Positions 15,918 to 52,417 of a DNA stretch of 64,000 nt are shown here, one piece after another; the first letter of the stretch is position 1, and every line of letters starts with the position of its first letter. Both the position numbers and the translations under genes were made by a program. The notes beneath the pieces are model-generated. The model was not told where the DNA came from and did no database searches. It saw only the letters and a list, made by a program, of their open reading frames with translations. Origin of the DNA: Vallitalea pronyensis (GTDB lineage: Bacteria; Bacillota; Clostridia; Lachnospirales; Vallitaleaceae). The stretch is from contig NZ_CP058649.1 of the NCBI RefSeq assembly GCF_018141445.1, positions 2,251,001 to 2,315,000 of the forward strand, written 5' to 3'.

Positions 15918-16598
15918 ATGACTTATATCAAACAAATGGGTATTGTATTAGCTCTTGTGTTAGTCATAACAGGTTGTGCCAGCAAAGTGGAGGATACAAA
16001 AGACAATGGCGACATGATGGATAAGGATCAACAGACAGAAGATATGCAAGATAATCACTCAGATGATGACATGACAGATGATAAGGACATGGATGATGAG
16101 ATGACAGATGACGCCATGAAGGATGACATGAAAGACAATGCGGAAGACGATGCAATGGCAGTTGAAGTGAAGAATAAAGGTAAAGAAGCCAATGATTTTA
16201 CATTAACAGATATCAACGGGGAGACACATACCCTTTCAGATTATAAAGGCAAGAAAGTATACTTGAAGTTCTGGGCATCATGGTGTTCCATTTGTGTAGC
16301 TGGATTGAGTGAAGGGGATGAATTAGCAGGTGCTGACAATGACTTCGAAGTATTGACCATTGTATCTCCAGGGTTCAGTGGTGAAAAGAATGCAGAAGCC
16401 TTTACAGAATGGTTTAATGGTCTTGGTACAGAACACATGAATGTGTTGTTTGATGAAGGCGGGGATATAGCCAAAGCATATGGCGTTAGAGGCTACCCCA
16501 CATCGGCATACATTGGATCAGATGGTATTTTAGTGAAACAACAACCAGGCCATAACAGTAATGAGAAAATTACGGAAAGCTTTGAAGCAATCTATTAA
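15918..16598 (+). CDS. TlpA-like thioredoxin-fold lipoprotein with Asp/Met-rich linker
   Basis: A lipoprotein signal (lipobox VITGC, Cys at about 20) anchors this 226-residue protein outside the membrane. Residues about 24-77 form a highly acidic spacer with repeated DDM/DKDM/DEM units. The rest is a TlpA/AhpC-TSA-like thioredoxin fold with ANDFTLTDINGETHTLSDYKGKK and the active site WASWCSIC. It should take electrons from CcdA and hand them to the MsrAB lipoprotein downstream. The Asp/Met-rich spacer is odd: it could bind metal, or its methionines could act as an oxidant sink; both are inference. Confidence 0.9.
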   Translation: MTYIKQMGIVLALVLVITGCASKVEDTKDNGDMMDKDQQTEDMQDNHSDDDMTDDKDMDDEMTDDAMKDDMKDNAEDDAMAVEVKNKGKEANDFTLTDINGETHTLSDYKGKKVYLKFWASWCSICVAGLSEGDELAGADNDFEVLTIVSPGFSGEKNAEAFTEWFNGLGTEHMNVLFDEGGDIAKAYGVRGYPTSAYIGSDGILVKQQPGHNSNEKITESFEAIY

Positions 16599-16627
16599 AG
16601 GATTCACTAATATTCTCCTAGGATAAG

Positions 16628-16654
16628 AGCACCTGCTATCGAGGTGCTTTTACC
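16628..16654 (+). terminator. Terminator after the TlpA-like gene
   Basis: AGCACCT at 16628-16634 pairs with AGGTGCT at 16642-16648, followed by TTTT. It lies between the thioredoxin-like gene and msrAB, so msrAB may have its own promoter in 16655-16780. Confidence 0.7.
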
Positions 16655-16793
16655 CGTTTCATTAAAACTAAGTGACCCCTTAATGTTTCCAAAAACGCTA
16701 GTCTATAGAATTATTTGATGAGACATACTAAAGAACCAATGTAATAGCATGATTCAGTTTTGACGAGTTTATATAAGAAAGGTGGTAGATGAG

Positions 16794-17912
16794 ATGAAAT
16801 ACGTAGGTGCTATTGCTTTATTGACACTAATCGTTGTCTTAATATCCAGTTGTACATCAGGAACTACCACAGGAGGTGTTAAGGCCAATATGGAACATAT
16901 GGATACAGCCTATGAAAGTGGGTTACCAGATAATCCCAATGCAGGCATTGACTATTCACAGACCCCATTAAAAGAAATATGGCTGGCAGGTGGATGCTTC
17001 TGGGGTATTGAAGCCTATATGGCAAGAATTTATGGTGTAGCAGATGTAACAGTAGGGTATGCTAATGGTAACACCGAAAACCCAACCTACGAAGAAGTCA
17101 TTGGTGGGTCCGGACATGCAGAAACCGTTCATGTCACCTATGACCCAGAGCGGGTTAATTTAGAAACACTATTGACGTATTTTTTCAGAGTGGTTGACCC
17201 TACAAGTGTGAATAAACAAGGAAATGATCGAGGCAGTCAATACCGTTCAGGTATATACTATCAAGATGAGACAGACTTGTCTATCATTGAAGAGGTTATA
17301 GCAGAGGAACAGAAAAATCATGATAAAGCCATTGTAACGGAGGTAGAACCTCTAGAGGCTTATGATCTGGCAGAGACATATCACCAAGATTATTTAGAAA
17401 AGAATCCCAATGGCTATTGCCATGTGGACTTTAAACATTTAGATGAGGAGGTCATTGTTATCGACGAAAACAAATACAAGAAACCAAGTGATGATGTGTT
17501 AAAAGAGACATTAACGGATATACAATATCGTGTGACACAGTTAGATGATACAGAAAGAGCTTTTAGTAATGAGTATTGGGATAACAAAGAAGCTGGTATC
17601 TATGTGGATGTAGCAACAGGTGAACCACTCTTTACATCCCTTGATAAGTACGATTCCGGCTGTGGATGGCCCAGCTTTACCAAACCCATTGTGGATGAAG
17701 TGGTGCATTACGAAGAAGATACCACATACAACATGGTGAGAACAGAAGTTAGAAGTCGAGCAGGGGACAGTCATCTTGGGCATGTGTTTGACGATGGACC
17801 AGAAGATCAAGGCGGAAAACGTTATTGTATCAACAGTGCATCCATCAAATTTATTCCAAAAGATGATATGGAAGCTGAAGGTTATGGCTATCTATTAAGC
17901 TTATTTAAGTAA
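16794..17912 (+). CDS. msrAB: Bifunctional peptide methionine sulfoxide reductase MsrA-MsrB, lipoprotein
   Basis: The ATG at 16794 follows AAAGGTGG; the GTG at 16782 lies in that site. A lipoprotein signal (Cys near residue 20, VLISSC) puts the 372-residue enzyme outside the membrane. The MsrA domain has the catalytic [11 protein letters not shown] near residue 65. The MsrB domain (from about 230) has DSGCGWPSF (recycling Cys) and [11 protein letters not shown] (catalytic Cys). The two Zn-binding CxxC pairs of many MsrBs are replaced ([11 protein letters not shown] and [13 protein letters not shown]), as in the Zn-free Neisseria PilB type. With CcdA and the TlpA-like protein it forms an outside repair chain for oxidised methionine. 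Confidence 0.95.
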
Positions 17913-17946
17913 GACATTGCAGTTTTAAAACCTTAAGGCTATAATG

Positions 17947-18003
17947 GAGATAAGAGTGATTGTTAACCATACATGTATGGCTAAGGTGCTCTTATCTCAT
18001 TTA
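17947..18003 (+). terminator. Hairpin terminator after msrAB
   Basis: A 10-bp perfect outer stem (17947-17956 with 17989-17998) contains an inner stem around CCATA/TATGG. A moderate A/T-rich tail follows. It ends the redox block before the next two-component pair. Confidence 0.65.
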
Positions 18004-18062
18004 TTATGTTCCATAAAACCAGAACTTATATGCAAGATATCTATTTCTATAAAGAGAGGGTG

Positions 18063-18839
18063 ATGTCTATCTATAAATTATTAATTGTTGACGATGAGCC
18101 GATTGTGAGAAAGGGCATTCGTTCTTTTGTGGATTTTGAAGCATTATCCATTGATCATGTCTTTGAAGCTTCTAATGGTAGTGAAGCATTAACCATTTTC
18201 AAGAAAGAATTGCCTCATATGGTGTTAGCAGATATCAACATGCCAAAGATGAATGGTTTGGATTTTGCAGCATTAGCAAAAGAAGTGAAACCCGATGTGA
18301 AAATAGCCGTTATTACAGGCTACGATTATTTTGATTATGCAGTAAAGGCCTTAAAAACAGGCATTGATGACTATATTTTAAAACCCGTATCCCGTAAAGA
18401 CATCTTTGAATTGTTACAAAAACTGGTGGATAAGTTAAGAGAAGAAAAAGTGACATCTGAAATCAACCATGTGGTAAAAGACTTAAAAGACCAATCCGGT
18501 ATTGATGAGCAGGACACGTATCAAAGCAGGTTATACAATCTTGTGGAAGAGAATATTGGCAATAAAGGTCTAACCTTGAGTCTATTAGCAGAAGAAATGG
18601 GACTAAGCGTCGGTTATCTCAGTGGTTTGTTTAAGAAGTTATTTGGGCAATCTTTTAAAGAATATGTATTAGCCAGGCGCTTAGAACGTGCTAAGATACT
18701 TCTACTCAGTTCAGACATGAAAAATTATGAAATAACAGACGTGATTGGTTTTGATGACCCCAATTACTTTAGTACGTGTTTTAAGAAAAAGTATGGTGTA
18801 GCTCCCAGTAAATACAAAGAAAAAATAAGGAATGATTAA
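18063..18839 (+). CDS. Response regulator with AraC DNA-binding domain
   Basis: The start is placed at the ATG at 18063, where the receiver domain begins (MSIYKLLIVDDEP) and AGAGAGGG lies close upstream; the ORF reaches back to 18006 without a better site. The 258-residue product has a receiver domain (phospho Asp in LADINMPKM, about residue 54; Lys in ILKPVS). It ends in an AraC-type helix-turn-helix pair (GLSVGYLSGLFKKLFG and IGFDDPNYFSTCFKKKYG). Unlike the YesN at 4209 it has almost no linker. The kinase gene follows by one base. Confidence 0.93.
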   Translation: MSIYKLLIVDDEPIVRKGIRSFVDFEALSIDHVFEASNGSEALTIFKKELPHMVLADINMPKMNGLDFAALAKEVKPDVKIAVITGYDYFDYAVKALKTGIDDYILKPVSRKDIFELLQKLVDKLREEKVTSEINHVVKDLKDQSGIDEQDTYQSRLYNLVEENIGNKGLTLSLLAEEMGLSVGYLSGLFKKLFGQSFKEYVLARRLERAKILLLSSDMKNYEITDVIGFDDPNYFSTCFKKKYGVAPSKYKEKIRND

Positions 18840-18840
18840 A

Positions 18841-20583
18841 ATGAAGCGACCTCATTTTTTCAAAAAAATACAAGTTCAAGTATCCATGAATGCTTTAGCA
18901 GCAGGCTTATTGGCGGTTTTGCTTGTTGGCTTTATTTTGTATTATAGTATGTCGCATATTGTGCTACAACAATCCATTAAGTCCACAGAAATGGCCATTG
19001 GAAAAAGCGGTGATTATATTGATCTCTACATTGAACGGTTAAAAGCCATTACGAAGATGATAGCTGAAGATTCCAGAACCATCTTCTATTTAGAAGGAAA
19101 AAGGGATACAGCCCTGTGTTCACAGAACGATATGATGGATATGATTAGGACAACCATCAACACGGATCCTTACATAAAATCCATCATCATTGTTGGTAAG
19201 AATGGTGAAGTCATTTCCAATGAAGAAGCCCTTAGTATGACCATGTCCAGCGATATGATGAATGAGGAGTGGTATGTAGAGGCCATTCATAGCGGCAGTA
19301 TGCCACATCTTACTTCTGCTAGAATGCAGAAGTTCTCCATGGATAAAGAAGAATGGGTCATATCCATGAGTAGGGAGATTACCAACAATGAAGGTGAAAA
19401 TATCGGTGTGATGGTACTGGACGTGCATTACAAAGTCATTGAAGATTATCTGGATAGTTTGGATTTGGGCAGTAAAGGTTGTGCTTTTATCCTTAATGAT
19501 AGTGGACAAGTAGTGTACCACAAGAATCCAGCCTATTTTAGTGATCCTGTATTGAAAGAGGAGTTAAATGCTATTCGTGATATGGCAATGGGTTACGATG
19601 CCAAGATAGAACGTCTTATTGAGCCTTATCCGTTAAAGCATGCCAATTGGACGCTCATTGGTATATCTTCATTGGATGAGTTAGCAGGTGTTAAGCGGCA
19701 GCTCATTGAAACGGTGATTATTGTAGGTATCATTATAGCGGTTGTGGTGATTGCTAGTGGTACTTATTTTGCTGGCAAGATTACCAATCCCATCAAACAG
19801 TTAGAGCAGGCAATGATGGATATTGAAGATGGGTTAAAGGAAGTTCATATTCGTAAAGACGGTACCTATGAAGTGAATGCCCTAGCCCTTCAATTTAATC
19901 GCATGATTGTGCGTATTAGGGAACTGATGCAAGATGTGACGGTGAAAGAGAAGAATATCCGAGAGTATGAATTAAAAGTACTCCATAGTCAAATTAATCC
20001 TCATTTTTTATACAACACATTGGATACCATTGTGTGGATGGCAGAATTTGATGATAGCCAAAAGGTTATTGCCATTACAAAAGCTCTTGCCAGCTTTTTT
20101 AGACTTTCCCTTAGTGGAGGAAGTGACCGGACGACGGTTAAACATGAATTTGAACATGTGAGGATGTACTTGTTTATTCAAAAAGAAAGATATGGGGATC
20201 AATTGACTTATGATTTGAACTATGATGTAGATATTGAGGATTGTCTTATACCGAAGATTATTTTACAGCCAATAGTAGAGAATGCGATTTATCATGGTAT
20301 TCGGGGGATGGATAAGCCGGGTTATATTGAGGTTACAGCGGAAAAAGTACCAGAGGGTATTGTGTTTACGGTGATGGATAATGGGGTTGGTTTTGATAGG
20401 CAGGGTGAAGAACAAGAGGATAGTAGGGGAGAAGAAAAAGTGAAATTAGGTGGGGTCGGTATTCAAAATGTTGATAAGCGTATTAAGTTGTATTATGGTA
20501 AGGGATATGGTGTTGAGGTGCAGTCTGAACCAGGTGTAGGGACGACTGTTAGGTTGGTAGTTGGTAGGATGATTAGGGGGTAG
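18841..20583 (+). CDS. Sensor histidine kinase, Cache-type extracellular domain (YesM family)
   Basis: TAAGGA sits nine bases before the ATG at 18841; an ATG at 18832 has no spacer to it. The 580-residue kinase has a membrane helix (about 18-42), an extracellular double-Cache-like sensor (about 50-290, including VGKNGEVISNE and GCAFILNDSGQVVYHKNP), a second helix, a HAMP domain, the HSQINPHFLYNTLD phospho-acceptor motif and an HATPase domain with ILQPIVENAIYHG. No transporter or enzyme gene is next to it, so its target is unclear. A long noncoding tract of foldback units follows. Confidence 0.92.
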   Translation: MKRPHFFKKIQVQVSMNALAAGLLAVLLVGFILYYSMSHIVLQQSIKSTEMAIGKSGDYIDLYIERLKAITKMIAEDSRTIFYLEGKRDTALCSQNDMMDMIRTTINTDPYIKSIIIVGKNGEVISNEEALSMTMSSDMMNEEWYVEAIHSGSMPHLTSARMQKFSMDKEEWVISMSREITNNEGENIGVMVLDVHYKVIEDYLDSLDLGSKGCAFILNDSGQVVYHKNPAYFSDPVLKEELNAIRDMAMGYDAKIERLIEPYPLKHANWTLIGISSLDELAGVKRQLIETVIIVGIIIAVVVIASGTYFAGKITNPIKQLEQAMMDIEDGLKEVHIRKDGTYEVNALALQFNRMIVRIRELMQDVTVKEKNIREYELKVLHSQINPHFLYNTLDTIVWMAEFDDSQKVIAITKALASFFRLSLSGGSDRTTVKHEFEHVRMYLFIQKERYGDQLTYDLNYDVDIEDCLIPKIILQPIVENAIYHGIRGMDKPGYIEVTAEKVPEGIVFTVMDNGVGFDRQGEEQEDSRGEEKVKLGGVGIQNVDKRIKLYYGKGYGVEVQSEPGVGTTVRLVVGRMIRG

Positions 20584-20671
20584 ATTGGTTTTGATTGGAA
20601 ATGGAATTGGATTTAAATTTTGTTGAGTTTTTTTGTGGAATTTTTATTGGTAAGTTATGTGCAAGACGTTC

Positions 20672-20877
20672 GTAGAGGGGGAATGGGTATGTAAAGTCGG
20701 TTCCTGTTAAAAGTGTCTAAGAAAAGCTAAGATTCGCGAAAGAGGTATTTCCTAAAGCTTACAACTCCCTAAAGGTCAGACAGGTAAGCTTCTTAACGGA
20801 AATACCTCTTTCGCTCACCAAGTTTTTCTAAGACACTTTTAAAAATCACCGACTTTACATACCCATTCCCCCTCTAC
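20672..20877. repeat. Foldback unit 1: 206-bp long imperfect palindrome
   Basis: The outer 30 bases (20672-20701) are a perfect inverted match of 20848-20877. Inside, 20709-20725 pairs with 20824-20840 (one mismatch), 20736-20752 pairs perfectly with 20798-20814, and 20755-20762 pairs with 20784-20791, leaving a 21-base loop. No ORF of note is inside and there is no long T tract. It may be a MITE-like element or a structured RNA; I cannot tell which. Confidence 0.85.
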
Positions 20878-20978
20878 TGGGGTAGTTGAAGAGCCACAGG
20901 CCATGGCGTTTTCTTGTGACTTATGAATTTACTTTGACCATTTGGTAAGTATTGCCTGTAGCCCTTTCAGATTGCCTA

Positions 20979-21176
20979 GTAGGTAGATGGGTATTGTAAA
21001 TCCGAGATGTTTAAATAATGGTTAGAAATCCTTAGTGAAAGGAAAGATGAATGACGTTAAGAAACTGAAGTGTTTGAACGCTAGTGAGTTTTCAGTTTTA
21101 GGCATTCAGCTTGGAGTGAACTTAGTATTTCTTCCATTATTTAACCTGAACGGATTTATAATACCCATCTACCTAC
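20979..21176. repeat. Foldback unit 2: 198-bp imperfect palindrome related to unit 1
   Basis: Bases 20979-21004 match the inverse of 21151-21176 in 25 of 26 places, and 21011-21021 pairs perfectly with 21134-21144. The arm shares GTAG..ATGGGTAT.GTAAA with unit 1, and both units are preceded by TTGGTAAGT (20647 and 20942). The right flank (CTACGGAAACCTTGCAC) resembles the inverse of unit 1's left flank (GTGCAAGACGTTCGTAG). Confidence 0.8.
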
Positions 21177-21298
21177 GGAAACCTTGCACAGTGTCTAATC
21201 ATCATACCTATTTTTTCACCGGATTGACCTTAGCATTTATGTCTTTATAGTTGACAAAACCCATGTAATCCTATAGAATACTATTTAATAATCGAAAG

Positions 21299-21430
21299 GG
21301 GTATTGTAAGTTATGACAATCAATTGCTAATGATAAGAAATCAATAAAAGAAGGATAAGGAACTTACCTAATAGAGGTTTGTTTGTGTTGTCCTTATTGG
21401 ATTAGCATTGAAGATAACTTATTGTACTAA
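21299..21430. repeat. Foldback unit 3: decayed imperfect palindrome
   Basis: The left arm (21299-21338, beginning GGGTATTGTAA as in units 1 and 2) is an imperfect inverse of 21391-21428, with matching blocks TAAGTTAT/ATAACTTA, GCTAAT/ATTAGC and GATAAGGA/TCCTTATT. It is more degenerate than the other two. The GGGTAT boxes of the three units are 304 and 310 bp apart. Confidence 0.6.
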
Positions 21431-21515
21431 AATTGATGACTATTAGTGTTGTAATGGCATATAATGGTATATGGGCATGAGTAAGTAGCATGCTCGTGTT
21501 TAAATATGGATTTTA

Positions 21516-21552
21516 GGCTATAAGAAGATGACTTCTTATGGTCTTTTTTATA
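21516..21552 (+). terminator. Terminator-like hairpin at the end of the foldback tract
   Basis: ATAAGAAG (21520-21527) pairs with CTTCTTAT (21532-21539) around a 4-base loop, followed after GG by TCTTTTTTATA. It could end a transcript that runs through the foldback units. Confidence 0.6.
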
Positions 21553-21686
21553 ATCATATAGGCATCTGAGGAAATAAGATTACAGTATTCAATAAGAACC
21601 ATTAACACCATGTATAGTGGTTATGCTAATTCATGAAAGGGCATGAGATTATTATGTAAGAATACAATGGATTAGGAGTGGTGAAT

Positions 21687-22568
21687 ATGAGCCAATTTAG
21701 AATGATAAAAGATTATAAAGATATTGAACATATAAGAACAAGTTTTAATAGGTTAGCAAAGGAAACATTTGGTATTGATTTTGAATCATGGTATGCGAGA
21801 GGATTTTGGAATGACCGTTATATCTGTTATTCCATGTTGGATGGCGATAGGGTGATTGCGAATATTTCAATGAGTAAATTATCCATTTGTATAGAGGGCA
21901 AAACCTATGAAGCCATACAGATTGGAACAGTGATGACCCATCCTGATTATCGAAAACAAGGTCTTGCCAGGCAGTTAATGGAAGCCATCTATAGGGATTA
22001 TGATGAACGATGTGATTTCTATTATTTATTTGGGAATGATTTTGCATATGATTTTTATCGTAAACTTGGTTTTTCTCCTTCTCAGGAGCATACATTTACA
22101 ATGGCTTATCATAACCATGAAAAACCTAGTGGTGGTATGCGACAGCTTCATATCAATCAACCAGAGGATTTAGCTCTTATTATGCGCCTAACGAAGAATA
22201 AAGCTTATATTGACAAGTCATTTGGCATTAAGGATGAACAGGCTTTGCTATTATTCTATATGTTGTATGTGTATACCGATGATATTTTCTATCTGGAAGA
22301 CAAGGATACCATTGTGATGTATAAGATTGAGGATGGTGTGTTAGTCCTTATTGATGTAATCAGTGAAAATCAGGTACCTGTTGATTCTTTATTGCCTTAT
22401 ATAGCCACGGAAGACGTGAAACAGGTAGAGTTTTTGTTTACACCGAATATCGATACAACATCTATGGTTGTAAAAGCATTGGAAAAAGAGGATTCGACGA
22501 CCATGTTTCGACATCTAAACCATACTTTTAATAAGCCATTCAGATTTTCTGCTTGTTCACATGCGTAA
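21687..22568 (+). CDS. GNAT family N-acetyltransferase (Eis-like)
   Basis: AGGAG lies eight bases before the ATG at 21687; two GTGs at 21678 and 21681 overlap it. The 293-residue protein has an N-terminal GNAT fold with the acetyl-CoA loop in IGTVMTHPDYRKQGLARQLM (about residues 81-100), then YYLFGNDFAYDFYRKLGF. A second domain of about 150 residues follows, the two-part layout of Eis-like acetyltransferases. The substrate is unknown. It stands alone between the foldback tract and asd. Confidence 0.85.
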   Translation: MSQFRMIKDYKDIEHIRTSFNRLAKETFGIDFESWYARGFWNDRYICYSMLDGDRVIANISMSKLSICIEGKTYEAIQIGTVMTHPDYRKQGLARQLMEAIYRDYDERCDFYYLFGNDFAYDFYRKLGFSPSQEHTFTMAYHNHEKPSGGMRQLHINQPEDLALIMRLTKNKAYIDKSFGIKDEQALLLFYMLYVYTDDIFYLEDKDTIVMYKIEDGVLVLIDVISENQVPVDSLLPYIATEDVKQVEFLFTPNIDTTSMVVKALEKEDSTTMFRHLNHTFNKPFRFSACSHA

Positions 22569-22788
22569 AAGGTTGTATAATCTTTGCAGCACTTTAACAG
22601 AACGCAGAGATAAATAACTAAAAAATAGGATTGATTTTTTATGGATTTCATGTTAAACTATATCAAGGAAAAACATATGTACATGTCTGAAAGACATATG
22701 ATGATAGATACACGGTGACAGCATTTAGTTTGTTTTGTATCTTGATAGGTAAGCAATAGATAGAATAAGATTAAAGTGAGGTAAGCAA

Positions 22789-23874
22789 ATGGAATCAAAA
22801 TTACGTGTAGGTATTATAGGTGCTACTGGTATGGTAGGCCAGCGATTTATTACATTGTTACATGACCACCCTTGGTATGATATTGCTTGTTTAGCAGCAA
22901 GCCCACGATCAGCAGGAAAAACATATGCTGAAGCAGTTGATGGACGTTGGGCACAATCCATAGACATCCCTGAGACAGTAGGAAATATGGTTATTAAGGG
23001 TGCCGATGACATAGAGGCTATAAGCGATGTAGTGGATTTTGTATTTTGTGCGGTGGACATGGATAAAAAAGCCATTCGTGACTTAGAGGAAGCTTATGCA
23101 AAAGCAGATGTACCCGTTGTATCCAACAATTCGGCTCATCGTTGGACAGAAGATGTGCCCATGGTTATTCCTGAGATTAATGATGCACACATTAAGGTTA
23201 TTGATGACCAGAGAAAACGCCTAGGTACGACGAGAGGATTTATAGCTGTTAAACCCAACTGTTCCATTCAAAGTTATGTGCCTGTAGTGGATGCCCTTAT
23301 GGCTTACAAACCTACAAAGGTTAATGTATGTACCTATCAAGCTATTTCTGGAGCAGGTAAAACATTTGATAGTTGGCCAGAAATGGTGGATAACATCATT
23401 CCGTACATTGGCGGTGAAGAAGAAAAAAGCGAAAAAGAGCCCATGAAATTATGGGGAACCATTGAAAATGGTAAGATTGTTGAAGCAAGTGAGCCAGCCA
23501 TATCGGCTCAATGTATCCGTGTGCCAGCAGCAGATGGACATATGGCAGCCGTTTCCATATCTTTTGAGAAGAAGCCAGATGTAAAAGAAGTCATTAACTT
23601 GTTAAACAACTATGCTGGTAAGCCTCAAGCATTAAACTTACCTTCAGCACCAAAGCAATTTATGAAATACATGGAAGAGGACAGCCGTCCACAGACTAAA
23701 CTTGACCGAGAGTATGAAAAAGGTATGGGTGTTACAGTTGGGCGTTTTAGAGAGGATAATCTATTTGATTACAAATTCGTCTGTCTATCTCATAATACAT
23801 TAAGAGGAGCAGCAGGCGGCGCTGTGTTAATTGCAGAATTACTAACTGCTGAAGGCTATATTACAAAAAAATAA
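22789..23874 (+). CDS. asd: Aspartate-semialdehyde dehydrogenase
   Basis: The 361-residue enzyme has the NADP-binding GIIGATGMVGQRF (residues 8-20) and the catalytic Cys in AVKPNCSIQSYV (about 153), with SGAGKTFDSWP and the C-terminal active-site RVPAADGH. It converts aspartyl phosphate to aspartate semialdehyde for lysine, threonine and methionine synthesis. The long insertion after GGEEEKSEKE places it in the archaeal/fungal-type ASADH branch that many Clostridia carry. GTGAGG precedes the ATG. No other amino-acid gene is next to it. Confidence 0.95.
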   Translation: MESKLRVGIIGATGMVGQRFITLLHDHPWYDIACLAASPRSAGKTYAEAVDGRWAQSIDIPETVGNMVIKGADDIEAISDVVDFVFCAVDMDKKAIRDLEEAYAKADVPVVSNNSAHRWTEDVPMVIPEINDAHIKVIDDQRKRLGTTRGFIAVKPNCSIQSYVPVVDALMAYKPTKVNVCTYQAISGAGKTFDSWPEMVDNIIPYIGGEEEKSEKEPMKLWGTIENGKIVEASEPAISAQCIRVPAADGHMAAVSISFEKKPDVKEVINLLNNYAGKPQALNLPSAPKQFMKYMEEDSRPQTKLDREYEKGMGVTVGRFREDNLFDYKFVCLSHNTLRGAAGGAVLIAELLTAEGYITKK

Positions 23875-23923
23875 ATCTTAAGATGTCACAATGAAACATG
23901 ACTTAGAAATATAAATCAATATG

Positions 23924-24026
23924 AGAAGGACTGTTGTTAAAGCACTTTGTTCATGCGTAAGGTATGGTATTATTTGCCAAATGCATGAGCAGTGATGATG
24001 CTTTATGAACAGTTCTTTTTATTTTA
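23924..24026 (+). terminator. Long hairpin terminator after asd
   Basis: AGGACTGTT..TAAAGCA near 23927-23943 pairs with the inverse at 24000-24016, with an inner GTTCATGC/GCATGAGC stem, and TCTTTTTATTTTA follows. The loop region is long and only partly paired. Confidence 0.65.
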
Positions 24027-51837: not shown

Positions 51838-52105
51838 ATAAAAAACTCCCGTCCTTATAAAAAAGGACGAGAGTAACAATCACGTGGTACCACCTTCATT
51901 CATTGCTGCCTTACGGCAACAACCTTAACAAGCACGCTGATGAATCATGGTTCAAAAGGATGCCCTGGTAGGATAACGTCTACCAAGCGTCACTAGTCTA
52001 CTCATACCTATAGGTCTTTCGATAGGAAACTCAAAGAGGTATTCACATTAGCTTGTTTGAAGCCTTTCACCAACCGGCTACTCTCTGTAAAACGTTGCTA
52101 ATCTT
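51838..52105 (-). ncRNA. T-box riboswitch (tyrosine) controlling tyrS
   Basis: On the minus strand the leader shows an AGAGAGT stem I element near 52082-52090 and the sequence GAATACCTC (52036-52044) with specifier codon TAC for tyrosine at 52039-52041. The conserved antitermination box GGTGGTACCACGTGA is at 51880-51894. A terminator stem of about 10 bp with a T run ends it at 51838-51873. Uncharged tRNA-Tyr should pair at both sites and stabilise the antiterminator. A small TTAACTT/AAGTTAA hairpin at 51803-51822 lies between the terminator and tyrS. Confidence 0.95.
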
Positions 52106-52417
52106 ACTATTTCTTATCATCGTTTTTGCATCAATATGATGTTTTTCAAAATGTTGCTTATGATTATATGCCAATGTTTTATGTTTGTCAAGGTGTTTTT
52201 TTAACTTAATTATCTATATGCCATACAGTTGTAAAAGGTGCCTTGCGATGCTGTCATATATGATTATAATTCTTTAATTAAAATTAAGACTTAGCCCTAT
52301 ATACATGACAAATTTAAGGGAATGCTATAAAATAGAAGTAAGTTATAAGCCAGTTTTACAAATCTTACCATTTGGAAGAAATCCGTTAAAGCTGGGAACT
52401 ATAAGGGAGGGTCACAT
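52106..52417. other. Intergenic region between divergent tyrS leader and flavodoxin
   Basis: The region is A/T-rich with no gene. A plus-strand promoter candidate for the flavodoxin is ATGACA (52305-52310), 17 bases, TAAAAT (52328-52333). The minus-strand promoter for the T-box leader should lie around 52120-52180, but I cannot place it with confidence. Confidence 0.5.

Follow-up and report, generated by a model that had tools for sequence, protein, structure and literature searches.

Large palindromic elements with maintained pairing in Vallitalea and an apical module recurring in other phyla

An inverted pair of hairpins in the window

The window, a 64,000-nucleotide stretch of the Vallitalea pronyensis genome (G000), contains a gene-free tract running from the end of one ORF at 20583 to the start of the next at 21678 (window coordinates). 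The original prediction placed three foldback units in a row here with a period of about 305 bp, raising the question of whether the tract is a tandem MITE-like family, a large structured RNA, or neither. Folding of each unit as RNA, as the prediction proposed, placed all three below their shuffled versions (z −13.3 and −8.0 for units 1 and 2, each below 200 of 200 dinucleotide shuffles, and −4.2 for unit 3). Unit 1 is a 206-bp hairpin on the plus strand (20672–20877, GTAG...CTAC) with arms at 20672–20728 and 20821–20877, supported by genome matches and a covariance-model hit. Unit 2, a 198-bp hairpin at 20979–21176, is inverted and lies on the minus strand, with arms at 20979–21021 and 21134–21176 and 85–89% identity to several other genome copies by blastn. 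Units 1 and 2 are thus genuine long hairpins, but unit 3 has no relative: its best non-self hit in the genome has an E of 0.08, which leaves it without a second copy there, it matches none of the other retrieved loci, and the covariance model does not hit it. Judged by these comparisons it is not a decayed member of the family. The window therefore holds one inverted pair at 20658–21190 with its 3′ ends facing, plus an unrelated weak hairpin, and a three-unit tandem array is ruled out because unit 3 is unrelated and the pair is inverted. The proposed periodicity falls with it, the pairs found elsewhere being about 280 to 780 bp apart.

Alignment places the 5′ end motif of unit 1, TGTGCAAGACGTTC, at 20658–20671 on the plus strand (alignment A1; outer limit inferred from where similarity ends), and it is kept as GTGCAAGACGNNC in most aligned copies of the genome. 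The corresponding motif of unit 2 is TGTGCAAGGTTTCC on the minus strand, at 21177–21190. The outermost flanks, TGTGCAAGACGTTC and GGAAACCTTGCACA, had been described as inverse-like, and they do agree at 10 of 14 positions (counted by eye); because the two units are mutually inverted, these flanks are simply two 5′ motifs. The spacer between the units (20878–20978) holds the facing 3′ flanks, which are TRGGCTAG-like. The apical module of unit 1 (CTAAA-stem-AACTCCCTAAAGGTCAGACA-stem-TTCTTAACG) was located by alignment at 20752–20798 on the plus strand, and the same module occurs across phyla; that of unit 2 aligns at 21055–21101 on the minus strand. Two other predicted features fared less well. 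The sequence TTGGTAAGT, said to be shared upstream of both units, precedes the 5′ end of unit 1 but the 3′ end of unit 2 once the latter is oriented, and was not seen in the other flanks displayed, so its sharing is probably due to chance. The GGGTAT(T)GTAA box falls within the outer stem, which varies between copies.

A dispersed family with maintained pairing

A blastn search with positions 20640–21190 against the own genome (6.33 Mb) returned 61 matches, so the refuting case named in the original prediction, arms with no further copy at all, does not apply. A covariance model (R1), built on the inner 146 positions in 35 copies (alignment A2), gave 58 matches in the same genome, two of them second-strand hits at the same place, leaving 56 distinct copies. 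What had been proposed as a possible tandem MITE-like group is therefore a dispersed hairpin family, far larger than guessed. The model also matched five other genomes of the genus (8 matches in G004, 18 in G001, 4 each in G002 and G005, and 1 in G003), some of these matches being partial or of a divergent subfamily, and one of the 18 in G001 (C34:215055) being left out of the set of 90 copies. Such strong variation in copy number within the genus (56, 8, 18, 4, 4, and 1) counts for mobility. Seven further genomes beyond the genus contained matches, giving 13 of 295 genomes of the order in all.

The copies share a common layout. The 5′ half reads GTGCAAGACGNNC, then GTAG-variable outer stem-internal loop-TTAAA stem-AGAAAAACTAAG/CACTAAGATTTTCT region-inner stem; the apex reads CTAAA-stem-AACTC-NN-loop-NN-TCARACA-stem-TTYTTAACG; and the 3′ end closes with CTAC followed by TRGGCTAG, orientation being set by the 5′ motif. 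GTAG stands at the hairpin base in most aligned copies, and the hairpins are about 196–208 bp long. The outer arms differ among copies, whereas conservation is found in the apex and in the internal loops, including unpaired loop residues. Copies in G001 are mutually alike except in their outer arms, which nevertheless remain complementary, and this counts for movement. Side observations concern the same genome: at L132, L133, L134, and L138 other palindromes interrupt the element copies, in two kinds, one per arm, and at the start of contig 48 (L123) there is a perfect fold-back of flanking sequence, which is probably an assembly artefact and was left out of the counts.

Two hairpins were present at 12 of the 31 first-fetched loci and one at the rest. 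In 10 of the 12 the 3′ ends face each other, as in the window, with the orientation of the second hairpin type inferred from its ends; the departures are L013, where 5′ ends face, and L038, where two copies lie on one strand. A second palindrome type of 187–188 bp, with GTAAATG ends and its own apex, was seen on the 3′ side of the element at five loci (L010:1709-1815, L011:1693-1879, L022:894-1081, L023:894-1081, and L026:1646-1833), and it accompanies copies at loci of G004 and G005 as well. In Sphingobacterium, too, copies have a second hairpin (GTCGCATCC...GAAGCGACGA), after which comes an inverted end motif. The combination of two dissimilar hairpins whose outer ends are inverted seems to recur as a design, and both the inverted pairs in most two-hairpin loci and the second hairpin of Sphingobacterium count for a REPIN/BIME-like reading.

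The compensatory changes that the original prediction asked for are abundant. RNAalifold on 35 G000 copies returned 61 pairs, 44 of them with two-sided changes. Paired cells amounted to 95.0%, compared with 75.2% in shuffles, two-sided cells to 428 compared with 131, and the covariation score was 0.522 compared with 0.155 (sd 0.007), and none of the 500 shuffles reached these values on any of the three. Versions of the structure slid along the alignment scored at most 0.091, a control biased in favor of the structure, which was derived from the same sequences. When all 56 G000 copies are taken, two-sided changes occur in 61 of 69 pairs. The two strands of the 2-bp apical ministem change in concert as well: among 84 copies it is of CC/GG type in 44, CT/AG type in 16, GC/GC type in 11, and AC/GT type in 6, with 3 short and 4 other cases. 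Covariation of the kind expected of a structured noncoding RNA family is therefore present relative to the controls, and by copy number and by covariation against shuffled and slid versions the family exists above chance.

On these observations we read the family, with a confidence that we would put at even, as an undescribed superfamily of non-autonomous, REPIN/BIME-like palindromic elements in which the folded single strand is selected. Giant hairpins of this kind would spread through intergenic DNA, often paired with their 3′ ends facing, by means of an enzyme acting in trans on the folded single strand. Selection on the fold would restore pairs after mutation, and the two-sided covariation together with the paired ministem changes counts for this part of the reading.

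Strand asymmetry and genomic position

A structured RNA family would be expected to favor G.U over A.C on the strand that is transcribed. In 80 copies read on the strand oriented by GTGCAAGAC...TAGGCTAG, isolated mismatches were G.T in 37 cases and A.C in 42, so there is no G.U preference on the strand as oriented. The 56 G000 copies showed no asymmetry either (G.T 40, A.C 41), while 22 copies from other species gave 3 and 13; this 78-copy count leaves out 12 of the 90, namely four divergent-subfamily and four interrupted copies of G001, one contig-end fold-back, the truncated G003 copy, and two partial G005 copies. In subfamily C there is a small excess in the other direction (G.T 13, A.C 10). 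In Tepidibacter (37 of 42 rows, five being omitted as interrupted or misaligned), A.C outnumbers G.T by 62 to 10 at columns paired in the folds of both strands, and exceeds it in 30 of 58 columns compared with 10 for the converse. The excess is independent of gene orientation, with A.C to G.T at 12:1 where the gene on the 5′ side is opposite and 50:9 where it is co-directional. The 18 Sphingobacterium rows gave 11 A.C and 1 G.T at shared columns; two columns paired only in the forward fold hold 30 T.G cells, and one Sphingobacterium count dropped columns less than 60% Watson-Crick, which the shared-column comparison shows. For G000 (35 rows) the shared columns gave 27 A.C and 19 G.T when the misaligned column pair 63/194 of A1 (12 G.T) is omitted, and the forward fold with that pair gives 31 G.T and 27 A.C. 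A cruder count over 15 Bacteroidota copies points in the opposite direction (G.T 28, A.C 14). Consensus folds were lower on the opposite strand than on the oriented one in all three sets (−34.3 and −26.9, −70.7 and −51.6, −76.6 and −66.5). From these sequence patterns we read selection as acting on the opposite single strand, firmly in Tepidibacter, probably in Sphingobacterium, and weakly or not at all in G000.

The large structured RNA of the original prediction gains from this asymmetry and becomes the main rival, though not the preferred reading. It would be a multi-copy family, either an RNA gene or functional for the host, read from the strand complementary to GTGCAAGAC...TAGGCTAG, and the hairpin, internal loops, and apex would then be protein- or RNA-binding features. 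The excess of A.C in Tepidibacter, Sphingobacterium, and the shared columns of G000 indicates that G.U is tolerated on the opposite strand; its independence of gene orientation, the better folding of that strand, and the conserved unpaired residues of the internal loops also fit an RNA. The even count over all 56 G000 copies, the lean of subfamily C, the crude Bacteroidota count, and the T.G cells of Sphingobacterium do not. No promoter-like box was apparent by eye on the opposite-strand side of the consensus, and the genes on both sides run counter to the proposed RNA strand at 34 of the 56 loci in G000. Among mismatches in DNA, moreover, G.T is the mildest, so that folded single-stranded DNA would leave a similar mark, and the wobble asymmetry does not tell RNA from DNA. 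Taken together, an RNA family is a serious candidate that we nonetheless consider on the unlikely side.

Pairing might also persist with no selection at all, if old decaying repeats had their arms kept complementary by template switching. Long palindromes are generally prone to such arm-to-arm correction, and the equal G.T and A.C deviations in G000 are what it would produce. Conserved loop mismatches, a covarying 2-bp ministem, and the strand-specific wobble of Tepidibacter would be unexpected, and so would conservation of the apex across phyla, making neutral correction the least probable of the explanations that we weighed.

The copies are intergenic: no ORF of at least 80 aa contains any of the 56 copies in G000 or of the 34 in the other genomes of the genus. 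In the Clostridia they are also biased in orientation, the 5′-side gene being co-directional at 39 of 56 loci in G000 (p 0.005), 29 of 34 in the other genus genomes (p 4e-5), and 36 of 43 Tepidibacter places in a recount among the matches listed, where overlapping loci may count a copy twice. Orientation in G000 is confounded with replication direction, 24 of the 36 copies in the left half being plus and 16 of the 20 in the right half minus, with origin and terminus assumed. Among the Bacteroidota matches listed, a recount found the 5′-side gene co-directional in 6 of 15 cases with a known neighbor, which is no bias. A terminator-like hairpin within 70 nt was found upstream of 12 and downstream of 1 of 39 Tepidibacter copies, with corresponding numbers of 7 and 3 of 56 in G000 and 2 and 0 of 34 in the other genus genomes.

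This placement would suit a 3′-UTR or terminator element, in which the hairpin would terminate or protect the message of an upstream gene that runs in the same direction. The orientation bias of the Clostridia, the T-run that follows the outer stem in Tepidibacter, and internal deletions that spare the outer stem all agree with such a role. The wobble asymmetry, however, sits on the wrong strand for the transcript of the upstream gene, no T-run follows the Vallitalea hairpins, the Bacteroidota copies (6 co-directional, 9 not) show no bias, and another terminator-like hairpin already lies upstream of 12 of the 39 Tepidibacter and 7 of the 56 G000 copies. We therefore regard a terminator function as improbable. 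For the REPIN/BIME-like elements of our preferred reading, the same placement would mean that copies are retained at gene 3′ ends, where they are harmless.

Comparison of genomes gives evidence of movement as well as of retention. The same neighborhoods in different species hold copies at different positions, and one convergent gap carries the element in opposite orientations in G001 and G002 (L118 and L124), which together count for movement. At a galK-galE-galT-like operon (names given by length and order), copies occupy four positions in five genus genomes (L105, L111, L120, L122, and L139). One site is shared in position and orientation by G000 and G004 (L031 and L108), with neighboring proteins 63–65% identical, and orthologous copies in Tepidibacter and Sphingobacterium align better than their flanks (by eye); vertical retention and conservation beyond the flanks suggest a host function. 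Orthologous sites in Tepidibacter hold remnants that have lost internal parts but retain the outer stem, and no clean empty site was found in that comparison. No target-site duplication was shown and no recurrent neighbor gene family was found among the 80 apical-module matches listed, both of which count against a mobile element.

The apical module in other phyla

A scan with the apical pattern AACTCCN{3,4}GGTCARACAN{6,11}TTYTTAACG found at least 120 stretches. The 80 matches listed include Tepidibacter, Clostridium, Tissierellales, and Vallitalea on the Bacillota side; Sphingobacterium, Flavobacterium, Christiangramia, Saprospiraceae, and others among the Bacteroidetes; and Campylobacterales/Arcobacter/Helicobacteraceae (Campylobacterota) as well as bacterium BMS3Abin06. 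Isolates are among the carriers, so contamination of metagenome-assembled genomes cannot explain all of the matches. When the phylum to which G000 belongs was surveyed with the exact pattern, G000 itself was the one positive genome among 398, with 26 places. In the phylum that includes Sphingobacterium SGR-19, 395 genomes yielded four positives (15, 3, 2, and 1 places, SGR-19 among them), and the reversed pattern gave 0 in both surveys. The exact pattern recovers less than half of the G000 copies, so these counts are minimum values. The other boxes are likewise present in the Tepidibacter copies, and Sphingobacterium and Flavobacterium copies start with interlocking repeats, for example TTTCTTTTTC-CTTGAC-GAAAAAGAAA-CAAAAA-GTCAAG. 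Next to copies at the ends of two contigs in Tepidibacter (L192:1-230 and L200:1-209) there is also a small repeat whose ends are inverted (CCCTATAGA...TCTATAGGG).

Occurrence across phyla is patchy, with many copies where the element is present, which counts for a mobile element that would have moved between phyla. Against this, no match was found in plasmids (three element queries and window positions 16000–24000), in phages (one element query), or in viral contigs (exact pattern), which is unusual for a mobile element. To our knowledge, the dispersed bacterial palindromes described so far are small and lineage-specific. We tentatively raise the wider possibility, and would sooner doubt than assert it, that the elements belong to an unrecognized class of structured elements, mobile single-stranded DNA or RNA, that are organized around a single apical recognition module, have spread among three or more phyla (Bacillota, Bacteroidota, and Campylobacterota), and are served by a dedicated recombinase or RNA-binding protein, with the fold of one strand selected. 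Within a single genome a large hairpin family retains its fold despite hundreds of paired changes, and its apex is recognizable in unrelated phyla; the purpose and the mover of intergenic palindromes thereby become testable. The apex could serve as bait for a partner protein, with the strand bias as a guide to the strand worth examining.

Candidate partners were sought in carrier genomes, most of which are drafts. The Y1 transposase family PF01797 was matched in 8 of 13, the five without a match being drafts, and the reverse transcriptase family PF00078, which a group II intron or other retroelement would require, in 12 of 16, the four without being mostly drafts. The integron integrase model TIGR02249 was over its cut-off (265) in 0 of 16, with partial matches below it in G304 and G307 (236.9 and 216.5 bits). 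A RAYT/IS200 transposase, a reverse transcriptase, or an integron integrase is disfavored as universal partner by these absences, which are weak evidence in drafts. The lack of a mobilizing gene in these surveys counts against the mobile reading. None of the four PF01797 matches of G000 is near a copy, and the apical motif (up to 2 substitutions) occurs near 3 of 44 Y1 or reverse transcriptase loci (L279 twice, L284, and a loose match at L333), which is not a systematic link. A RAYT-like Y1 transposase of 254 aa was observed in G000 (L061:1465-2229), flanked by repeats that contain GGGGACGTTTCG; to all appearances this is a standard REP/RAYT system, separate from the element. Mobilization by this resident gene was rejected, the flanking repeats being different and no apical-motif match lying within 3.3 kb.

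Among known systems, the REP/REPIN/BIME repeats with RAYT are likewise multi-copy, intergenic, palindromic, and often arranged as inverted pairs, as in the window and in the 10 loci with facing 3′ ends. REPs are short palindromes with a GTAG or CGTC tag, and PMC3733652 gives them 20–40 bp and describes the GTAG-tagged kind; our hairpins also start with GTAG in this genus, but at about 200 bp they are far outside that size range. They differ further in an apical module common to several phyla and in the five draft carrier genomes of 13 without a Y1 match. The ERIC/RU-type palindromes of enterobacteria fall into classes of 127, 168, and 103 bp, as given in PMC2759123. These too are longer imperfect palindromes in intergenic DNA, but they differ in sequence and in hosts. 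We know of no autonomous partner for the ERIC/RU type, and of no cross-phylum module or comparable wobble asymmetry in it.

The attC sites of integrons are folded single-strand hairpins with poor sequence conservation but conserved pairing; they lie on the 3′ side of cassette genes, have end motifs GTTRRRY/RYYYAAC, and are active only as the bottom strand. The element resembles them in being a folded hairpin with varying sequence and conserved pairing, but its ends are GTAG/CTAC (compared by eye), it is dispersed with no array, and no integrase exceeded the cut-off in the 16 genomes. Like MITEs, the copies are short, non-coding, dispersed, and hairpin-forming, yet the fit to a classical MITE is poor: their ends are the most variable part and covary, the internal loops and apex are conserved, no target-site duplication was shown, and no parent transposon was found among the neighbors of the 80 matches listed.

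No description of the element was recognized in the openly accessible literature, as covered by titles and abstract openings, with subscription journals beyond that scope. Flavo-1 (RF01705), a structured repeat that occurs in many copies in Flavobacteria, in transcribed regions and on either strand (PMC9723704), is similar in kind but different in sequence, and it was rejected as the identity; its match in L148 (5920–5999) is 5.8 kb from the element. Rfam at gathering score gave no element match in the window or in 16 cross-phylum loci, nor did 10 further loci searched to E 0.5, and a permissive scan of 20400–21700 gave seven sub-threshold miRNA/snoRNA matches, the best at 30.5 bits where 100 are needed; on these scans a known Rfam RNA was rejected as the identity of the element. 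Elsewhere in the window, a T-box leader was identified on the minus strand at 51860–52129 with 107 bits.
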